A stretch of 32,287 bases of DNA. Origin: Rubrivivax sp. SCN 70-15. GTDB lineage: Bacteria > Pseudomonadota > Gammaproteobacteria > Burkholderiales > Burkholderiaceae_C. Numbering within the stretch: position 1 is the first letter of the stretch; each line of letters begins with the position of its first letter. The stretch covers positions 1 through 32,287 of the forward strand of contig MEGM01000018.1 in NCBI GenBank assembly GCA_001725505.1, in the 5' to 3' direction. Below, piece after piece: positions 3,844 to 29,776 of the stretch. A program made the position numbers and the translations under genes. A model generated the notes under the pieces. It did not search any database. It was not told the DNA's origin and was given only the letters and a program-made list of their open reading frames with translations.

Positions 3844-4290
3844 ATGGCGAATCGAACCCTCGACCCCCTCGACCGCGACCTGATCGCGCTGCTGCAGGCC
3901 AACGCGCGCGAAAGCACCGCCAATCTGGCGCGCAAGCTCGGCGTCGCGCGCACCACCGTGCTCGCCCGGCTGGCGCGCCTGGAGCGCGATGGCGTGATCG
4001 TCGGCTACACGGTGCGGCTGGCGCAGGACGTCGACGCGGCCAGCGTGCAGGCCTGGGTCGGCATCACGACGCAGCCGAAGTCGGCGCGCGAGGTCACGCA
4101 GCGCCTGGCGCGCCTGCCCGAGCTGCGCCAGCTGTGCTCGGTGAGCGGCGAGTTCGACTACCTCGCGCTGCTGCGCGCCGCCTCCACCGCGCGCCTGGAT
4201 TCGCTGCTCGACGAGATCGGCGCGATCGACGGCGTGCTGAAGACCACCACCTCGGTGGTGCTCGCGCTGCGCGTGGACCGCAGCGCCTGA
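3844..4290 (+). CDS. Lrp/AsnC family transcriptional regulator
   Basis: LDPLDRDLIALLQANARESTANLARKLGVARTTVLARLARLERDGVIVGYTVRL HTH followed by an AsnC-type effector domain. Confidence 0.93.
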   Translation: MANRTLDPLDRDLIALLQANARESTANLARKLGVARTTVLARLARLERDGVIVGYTVRLAQDVDAASVQAWVGITTQPKSAREVTQRLARLPELRQLCSVSGEFDYLALLRAASTARLDSLLDEIGAIDGVLKTTTSVVLALRVDRSA

Positions 4291-4350
4291 TGCCGACTTG
4301 CGATCGGTCGACTGCGAAGGGGGCCGCTCGCGGCCCGGAGCGGCCGTTCG
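4288..4350 (+). repeat. Dispersed repeat family R1, copy 1 (begins at the lrp stop codon)
   Basis: TGATGCCGACTTGCGATCGGTCGACTGCGAAGGGGGCCGCTCGCGGCCCGGAGCGGCCGTTCG; similar to 4686-4745(-), 25673-25742(+) and 31240-31307(-); internal GGCCGCT/AGCGGCC stem. Confidence 0.75.
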
Positions 4351-4383: not shown

Positions 4384-4491
4384 GGATCGGGGCAGCGGGG
4401 TGCCCTGCTCCGCTCATGTCCCCCGGCGTCGGCCTGCGGCCGCCACCTCCTCCTTTACTTCGCTACGCAGGGCACCCCACCGCCCCGATCC
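4384..4491 (+). repeat. Composite hairpin element, copy A
   Basis: Outer arms 4384-4407 and 4468-4491 pair at 22/24. Conserved strands CTCCGCTCATGTCCCCCG (4408-4425) and CTCCTCCTTTACTTCGCTAC (4447-4466) flank inner stem-loop GCGTCGGCC-TGC-GGCCGCCAC (4426-4446). Confidence 0.8.
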
Positions 4492-4538
4492 TCGAGCGTT
4501 GGCTGTTCGCGACCATCGAACGCCACCGATGCCGGTGG

Positions 4539-4641
4539 CCGCGGGCGTGGGGTGGCCGCTGTAGCGAAGTAAAGGAGGAGACGACGGTCGGCAGACCGTC
4601 GTCGGGGGACATGAGCGGAGGCGGCCACCCCGCGACCGGGG
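4539..4641 (-). repeat. Composite hairpin element, copy B (inverted relative to A)
   Basis: Reverse complement carries the same conserved strands (18/18 at 4603-4620 and 20/20 at 4561-4580) around inner stem ACGACGGTC-TGCC-GACCGTCGT (9/9 bp). Outer arms GGGGTGGCCGC.../...GCGGCCACCCC pair about 18/21 but differ in sequence from copy A. Confidence 0.8.
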
Positions 4642-4685
4642 CGCGCAACCGCGTCTGCATGCAGGGGCCGTGGCCCAACATTTGG

Positions 4686-4745
4686 CGAATGTCGGCTACG
4701 GGCCGCGAGCGGGCACATGGTCTTTCGTAGCGATCGATCGCAAAC
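4686..4745 (-). repeat. Dispersed repeat family R1, copy 2 (about 15 nt after the metallophosphoesterase stop)
   Basis: Reverse complement GTTTGCGATCGATCGCTACGAAAGACCATGTGCCCGCTCGCGGCCCGTAGCCGACATTCG aligns with copies 1 and 3. Confidence 0.65.
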
Positions 4746-4759
4746 GGGTACGAGCGGGC

Positions 4760-5485
4760 TCAGGGCATCTCGAGTCGACCGACGCGGCCGCTCGCGAGCG
4801 CGTCGGCCCAGTCACCGCGGCCGTTCTCTTCGGCACGGCGCGCGGCGGACTCCCAGTCGTAGGCCGTCGCGATCAGCCGCGCCTGCCAGCCCGCGGCGCC
4901 GCGCTCGGCCAATGTCCAGCGTGCGTGCGGACTGCCGGTCTCCATGCGATGCGCATGCGGGTTCGTGTCGTCGAAGGCCGGCAGGCCGACGCTGCCCGGG
5001 TTGACGACCAGCGTCGCACCGCATTGCGCCAGGCGCGGCATGTGGGTGTGGCCACACAGCACGAGCGGCGCGCTCACCGTGCCCAGGCGCTGCGCGACCT
5101 CGGCCGCGCTCGCCGCGCGCACGCCGGGCGAGCCGTTTGCGCCGAGGTCGGGGGTCACGGTCTCGAGGAAATACTGCAAATCGCTCACCGGCGTGCCGTG
5201 GCAGCACCAGACGCCGTCGCCGAGGTCCAGCGTCGCGGGCAGCGCGGCGAGCCAGGCGCGGTCGTCGTCGCCCAGGCGCGCGGCGGCGTAGGCATCGGCC
5301 GCCGACCGCGCCGCCGGCGCCAGCAGCTGGCGCTCGTGGTTGCCGCGGATCGTCGGCCACGCGAGCGCGCGCAGCCGCGCCGCGGTCTCGGCCCGCCGGT
5401 CGACGCGCTCGCGCGCGATCTCGGCCAGCACCGCGTCGAGCGCCGGCAGGTTGCCGTGGATGTCGGAGACGACGGCCAGGCGCAT
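4760..5485 (-). CDS. Metallophosphoesterase (YfcE/calcineurin-like); lacks the usual GD motif
   Basis: MRLAVVSDIHGNLPALDAVLAEIARE...PTIRGNHERQ...CCHGTP...LVLCGHTHMPRL...VVNPGSVG. The GD motif expected between DIHGN and GNHE is absent. Confidence 0.85.
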   Translation of the reverse strand: MRLAVVSDIHGNLPALDAVLAEIARERVDRRAETAARLRALAWPTIRGNHERQLLAPAARSAADAYAAARLGDDDRAWLAALPATLDLGDGVWCCHGTPVSDLQYFLETVTPDLGANGSPGVRAASAAEVAQRLGTVSAPLVLCGHTHMPRLAQCGATLVVNPGSVGLPAFDDTNPHAHRMETGSPHARWTLAERGAAGWQARLIATAYDWESAARRAEENGRGDWADALASGRVGRLEMP

Positions 5486-29537: not shown

Positions 29538-29720
29538 GCAGGAGAGTGCCGGGCGCGAAGCCCGGCCACCGAAGGCGCAATCTCCCATGAACGCTCAGGT
29601 CCCGTACTGCACACCTTTCATGCCGTCTGGAGACCCGTCACGACCTGCGTGACGCACCGAAGGAGCAAGGCCGCGCGCAGGCTGCCGCGGTCGAATCTCT
29701 CAGGTAACGAGGACAGAGGG
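29538..29720 (+). ncRNA. Tandem glycine riboswitch (two aptamers)
   Basis: Aptamer 1: GCAGGAGAGTGCCGGGCGCGAAGCCCGGCCACCGAAGGCGCAA...CGCTCAGGTCCCGTACTGC. Aptamer 2: TCTGGAGACCCGTCACG...CGTGACGCACCGAAGGAGCAAGG...AATCTCTCAGGTAACGAGGACAGA. Confidence 0.95.
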
Positions 29721-29776
29721 CGCGGCAAGCCCCGCGTCGCGAGACGCACGTCATCGATCGCCCTTGGAGCCACCTC

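Follow-up and report, generated by a model that had tools for sequence, protein, structure and literature searches.

Inverted hairpin units between two Rubrivivax genes belong to a dispersed repeat family with REPIN/BIME-like features

The window, by which we mean the whole 32,287-nucleotide stretch of Rubrivivax sp. SCN 70-15 DNA that was analysed, contains two inverted units, at 4384–4491 and 4538–4642, between two ordinary genes. These belong to a family of repeats whose members fold on one particular strand, occur in pairs, occupy their sites variably in related genomes and in places carry other DNA. We take the feature, with a probability of about 0.6, to be a copy of a mobile element that is non-autonomous, mosaic and REPIN/BIME-like and in which two palindromic units of ~105 nt lie in inverted orientation, bracketed in the window copy by an outer inverted repeat. 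The folded single strand would be recognised by a protein acting in trans, and a trans-acting enzyme would copy or move the pair, most probably as single-stranded DNA, the two units serving as the two ends of the moved element, as in REPINs.

In each unit, two core strands flank a variable inner stem with its loop, and the two arms of an outer stem enclose the whole; the folding z-scores of the units are −4 to −8. The shared core strands and the inner stems were found where the preliminary description had placed them. A degenerate inverted repeat, at 4298–4350 and 4686–4743, encloses both units of the window copy, so that the element is larger than first described and occupies almost all of the intergenic gap. 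The left repeat probably either forms the end of the element on that side or is a repeat of the host that served as the target. The features are as follows:

3844–4290, plus strand: flanking gene, Lrp/AsnC-family regulator (Pfam AsnC_trans_reg, 1.7e-17; context only)
4298–4350, plus strand: left outer inverted repeat, TTGCGATC...GGCCGCTCGCGGCCCGGAGCGGCCGTTCG (inverted-repeat pairs; alignment of both ends), likely element end or host target repeat
4384–4491, minus strand (folding, purine-rich): unit A, X-type arms (model R1 match at 4386–4489, minus, 97.8 bits; fold)
4384–4408, unstranded: unit A outer arm, 5' side, 92% complementary to 4467–4491
4408–4425, plus strand: unit A core strand CTCCGCTCATGTCCCCCG (sequence match)
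4426–4446, unstranded: unit A inner stem and loop (sequence, fold)
4447–4466, plus strand: unit A core strand CTCCTCCTTTACTTCGCTAC (sequence match)
4467–4491, unstranded: unit A outer arm, 3' side (complementarity to the 5' arm)
4492–4537, unstranded: centre between units A and B (the gap between second core strands, p2 to p2, is usually 98–117 bp in other copies)
4538–4642, plus strand (folding, purine-rich): unit B, Y-type arms (model R1 match at 4538–4642, plus, 85 bits; fold)
4561–4580, plus strand: unit B core strand GTAGCGAAGTAAAGGAGGAG (sequence match; unit B has the layout of unit A on the minus strand)
4581–4602, unstranded: unit B inner stem and loop (sequence, fold)
4603–4620, plus strand: unit B core strand CGGGGGACATGAGCGGAG (sequence match)
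4686–4743, minus strand: right outer inverted repeat (inverted-repeat search; alignment of both ends)
4760–5485 (3' end at 4760), minus strand: flanking convergent gene, calcineurin-like phosphoesterase (Pfam Metallophos_2, 1.3e-15; context only)

A search of the host genome and of the Burkholderiales for the core pattern, as the preliminary description had proposed, found further copies. The window's own genome holds 14–15 family matches; the first core strand alone is matched 15 times at up to two mismatches, against none for a reversed-pattern control, and the pattern is therefore not a product of chance. The same strand is present in 25 of the 61 relatives searched, with ~50 copies in each of two congeners. 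A scan of GTDB genomes with the two-strand pattern returned at least 119 stretches, and the genera among the matches listed include Rubrivivax, Hydrogenophaga, Variovorax, Rhodoferax, Aquabacterium, Caldimonas, Methylibium, Sulfurisoma, Lysobacter and Luteimonas. Occurrence is uneven across Burkholderiales, Rhodocyclales and Lysobacter/Luteimonas, and of 274 genomes sampled across the class the covariance model was positive in just 4, including one from a different family that carries 13 copies, so that the distribution is patchy. No family was matched in Rfam at gathering or permissive thresholds, and the literature search gave no paper that contains the core sequences or describes such a repeat in these genera. 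The view that this is not a named family thus holds, and the dispersed repeat appears to be undescribed. The phage collection gave no match; plasmids gave three weak matches, to Variovorax megaplasmids, and the annotated plasmid records show no genes at the matching positions.

Three side observations may be recorded here. Elsewhere in the window, a glycine riboswitch aptamer at 29617–29726 on the plus strand scores 55.5 bits, exceeding its gathering score. One unit (L106) comes from a contig of 524 bp that was assigned to the Ilumatobacteraceae (Actinomycetota), probably through mis-binning. In several species units share gene neighbours (L113, L116, L123, L142, L143 and L061; L051, L076 and L127), namely a methylmalonate-semialdehyde dehydrogenase-like and a LigB-type dioxygenase-like gene, both named by inspection. 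Such common neighbours suggest that some insertions are old and vertically kept, and they would be useful for dating the turnover of the arms.

The proposal that structure is maintained through compensatory change is borne out by the alignment of copies. Among 167 non-redundant units, outer-arm complementarity is 17.9 for a unit's own arms and 7.6 for arms swapped between units, and inner stems pair at 89% and 52%, respectively. When 57 units with inner loops of 19 nt were aligned without gaps, pairing was seen in 96% of cells, and the arms of homologous copies covary, with changes on both sides at 32 of the 34 modelled pairs; none of 500 shuffles reached the observed covariation values, and slid controls came nowhere near them. 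Units had been admitted to this subset on the strength of 18 or more of the 23 outer pairs, so it is the 167-unit arm-swap comparison that provides the unbiased test. The core strands, which had been characterised as conserved and unpaired, are indeed conserved but are in part paired. They covary as well, C:G exchanging with U:A at −1:0, next to the stem, and A:U with G:C at 2:−3, further inside; tandem G·A pairs become Watson–Crick in some copies (GCGAC/GTCGC, GCGAA/TTCGC), and a G·A/A·G swap occurs at 8:−11. On the purine-rich strand, the fold runs from the outer stem through a 3 × 3 loop, a short helix with tandem G·A pairs and a conserved purine-rich loop to the inner stem. We conclude that the fold of the family is kept by selection.

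The mismatches that remain in the stems identify the strand that folds. Transitions in a stem yield G·T or A·C mismatches with equal chance. On the strand quoted in the preliminary description there are 25 G·T and 291 A·C mismatches (p about 1e-58), outer and inner stems behaving alike, so that its complement carries 291 tolerated G·T/G·U wobbles. Because of this asymmetry the purine-rich complement, GAAGTAAAGGAGGAG / CGGGGGACATGA, with its covarying internal loop, is the folding strand, and the informative strand is thus the opposite of the one originally given. It is also the more stable of the two in both DNA and RNA folding. Selection acts on a folded single strand of purine-rich sequence; the wobble bias taken alone could equally reflect RNA or single-stranded DNA. 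A resemblance of the purine-rich strand to a Shine–Dalgarno sequence, hairpin and ATG was dropped because recurrent variants lose the ATG (TCGTG for TCATG).

Pairing is a second property of the family. Of 174 gaps between neighbouring units, 103 separate outward-facing inverted pairs at 60–130 bp, with the second core strands of paired units ~105 bp apart; by a simple scan, well over a quarter of units are unpaired. Two arm types recur, X (GATCGGG-type) and Y (GCCAAGG/GGGTGGCC-type), and many pairs combine one half of each. The outer arms of the two window units had been said to differ completely and yet to pair within each unit; they do pair, but the difference is incomplete, since GGGGTG/CACCCC next to the core is common to both halves and the arms are of recurrent types. 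One unit, at 3403 in L042 (end of contig C2 of G000), has an X-type left and a Y-type right arm and is either a recombinant or an assembly artefact.

A motif related to the outer repeat occurs in 53 of 232 unit flanks, mostly in Rubrivivax, against 19 of 1994 in the background, and is absent from genome G097. In the copy-rich genome G018, many copies are bounded sharply on both sides by inward-facing CGGCCCGTTGCGGTCGTTCG, giving elements of 400–600 bp beyond which the flanking sequence differs from copy to copy. Three such elements (L332, 190–791; L333, 211–743; L334, 195–671) contain a further large hairpin, which accompanies or replaces the unit and has a conserved core of its own, GGCGCCGAGGA...CCGCCGAGGATAAGCGCC. 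This exchange of one unit for a different large hairpin is mosaicism of the BIME kind.

Occupancy varies between relatives. At one locus G024 has a single pair between two co-directional genes, G097 a longer array and G086 three tandem pairs, and in seven congeners the site is empty, with hardly any space between the two genes and nothing of the element to be seen; these empty-site relatives are 70–84% identical, so that loss is not separable from gain at every node. Inspection of the G018 elements revealed no target-site duplication, and at the window copy the best shared word is a 4-mer at different offsets. RAYT, the obvious candidate for a mobiliser, fails: its family, PF01797, is missing from copy-rich G018 and G024, and family search and local tblastn linked no RAYT/HUH mobiliser to the units. 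The sole RAYT-like ORF adjoining a unit (L036, 3763–4452, upstream of gltB) scores below the cut-off for PF01797 (Y1_Tnp), appears to lack the HUH motif and is possibly a domesticated transposase. Pfam analysis of 102 neighbour genes gave diverse housekeeping genes and no transposase family, the ORFs around units, when clustered, proved to be host genes or frame shadows throughout, and no transposase-bearing parent copy with the same ends was seen among the loci examined.

The feature could instead be a conventional MITE that truly ends at the outer inverted repeats, depends on a double-strand transposase for movement and carries the hairpin units as passengers or protein sites. We regard this as unlikely. 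The sharp CGGCCCGTTGCGGTCGTTCG boundaries in G018 and the longer outer-repeat version around the window copy are in its favour, but the restriction of the outer repeat to a minority of flanks, mostly in one genus, contrasts with a hairpin core that is near-invariant across families, neither a target duplication nor, among the loci examined, a transposase-bearing copy with these ends was seen, and a passenger would need no strand-specific folding.

Less probable still is a structured RNA (an sRNA, mRNA stabiliser or attenuator), for which the purine-rich strand would be transcribed and an inverted pair would serve either side. The G·U-type wobble bias and the purine-rich internal loop with its tandem G·A pairs do look RNA-like. 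Units nevertheless form symmetric inverted pairs, and single units show no sense bias, 4 being sense/sense and 9 anti/anti to both neighbours, which disfavours a cis-acting RNA. Gene contexts (15 convergent, 36 tandem and 13 divergent, the background counts being 67, 180 and 47; all are rough, since genes were called with a simple codon-usage script) show no enrichment between convergent genes, and empty sites and arrays are likewise hard to reconcile with an RNA. Together with the lack of an Rfam relative, the inverted pairs, missing sense bias and background-like context favour a role at the DNA level. Among the three options of the preliminary description, the REP/MITE-like mobile hairpin is therefore favoured, and the cis-acting structured RNA is not.

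A non-mobile protein site on double-stranded or cruciform DNA, such as a nucleoid or chromosome-organisation element, is very improbable: the palindrome is long enough to extrude and single units exist, but the strand asymmetry of the wobbles is unexpected for a symmetric cruciform, and locus occupancy varies. The position of the window copy between the convergent lrp/asnC and phosphoesterase genes recalls a bidirectional intrinsic terminator or plain gene-end hairpin, a reading that we reject, as the least probable of all, on the gene contexts given above and on a core that has no T-run and that, unlike the stems, keeps its sequence from family to family.

The core is itself a target for insertion. 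In G097, an element of ~1.5 kb lies directly after AATACTTC of the core at two loci, with the displaced arm at its other end; the site is uninterrupted in G086, G024 and G074. The encoded protein is by inspection an IS110/IS1111-type transposase, and another IS110-type gene of that cargo is confirmed by Pfam as Transposase_20. The two insertions, at an identical core position in one complete genome, are:

L274, 3632–5125: IS110/IS1111-type insertion
L275, from 18523, reverse strand: IS110/IS1111-type insertion

Right-end remnants of the IS110-type element were also seen at L028 and L286. IS621 inserts in Escherichia coli REPs (PMC11208160), and the targeting of the hairpin core by the IS110 family parallels this. 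The insertions offer a natural target for bridge-RNA work.

In a lineage that includes relatives of Rubrivivax benzoatilyticus (L091; G024, G097, G086 and G074), pairs in the '+...−' arrangement stand 1.8–11.2 kb apart. The DNA inside is 51–60% G+C against 70–74% for the host, and its ORFs include Mrr, HNH, GNAT, nitrilase-like, DUF3800 and XRE proteins. Three typical attC sites were found in 37 kb of this cargo, and none in 75 kb of host sequence or in shuffled cargo. On its inner side the Y unit is followed by sequence that can be aligned for ~190 bp with the attI beside the true integron integrase of the same species, the sequences diverging exactly at G^TTRRRC. Left ends of this attI type recur at several loci in each genome, and at one chromosomal site the cargo differs between species and ranges from 2.1 to 11.2 kb. 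An integron integrase scored above cut-off in G024, G097, G086, G074 and G018, and none did in the window's genome, which is 90% complete. Wide pairs with attI-like sites and attC cassettes outside the integrase locus are:

L030, 3584–5819
L274, 3587–8968
L275, 7272–18568
L278, 3456–6250
L279, 3732–9800
L286, 1125–3619

The literature search for attI duplication gave nothing relevant. We tentatively suggest, at somewhat less than even odds, that in this lineage the element is a portable integron platform, in which several chromosomal loci of a genome each have a unit followed by ~100 bp and a full attI-like site, contain different cassettes and are closed by the other unit, and that the chromosomal integrase could load cassettes at these dispersed sites in trans. 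The attI-bearing derivatives hint at a route by which integron platforms could become more numerous within a chromosome, apart from movement of the integrase gene.

More generally, the repeat is widespread among environmental beta- and gammaproteobacteria, and comparison of its copies points very clearly to a strand-specific fold. As the stems are free to change while the internal loop is fixed, a direct test is possible of which protein binds the loop, and this raises the question of whether such a protein explains the spread of the repeat without RAYT.

With REPIN/RAYT (TnpA_REP) systems the family shares an intergenic, multicopy occurrence as inverted doublets of fixed spacing, the 103 outward-facing pairs among them, a stem-compensated folded single strand, arrays and targeting by the IS110 family (PMC3116915, PMC2817692, PMC11208160). 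The REP/REPIN unit is a palindrome of 20–40 bp (PMC3733652), whereas the unit here is ~102–108 nt and has a large conserved internal loop in place of the 5' GTAG or CGTC tag of REP; GNAG is present, but inside the stem beside the core and not at the end of the palindrome. Nor was a RAYT gene seen flanked by two inverted units, and G018 and G024 lack PF01797. On the favoured reading the element functions as a REPIN does, yet it is not classed as one, since unit size, tag and RAYT all depart from the definition. Integron attC sites are likewise long imperfect hairpins with conserved unpaired positions that function on one folded strand; the core of the 57-unit alignment has no RYYYAAC/GTTRRRY boxes, however, and the family is present in a genome without an integrase above cut-off. 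Bacterial MITEs are similarly short and non-autonomous and have empty sites, and the inverted repeats that bracket the present family in some lineages may be terminal as in MITEs, but this family has an internal covarying fold, and neither a target duplication nor, among the loci examined, a parent IS was found. From enterobacterial BIMEs it differs in unit size, core sequence, host range and the outer inverted repeats of some lineages; like them, it forms mosaics of palindromic units (X, Y and further ones) in alternating orientation and in tandem arrays.
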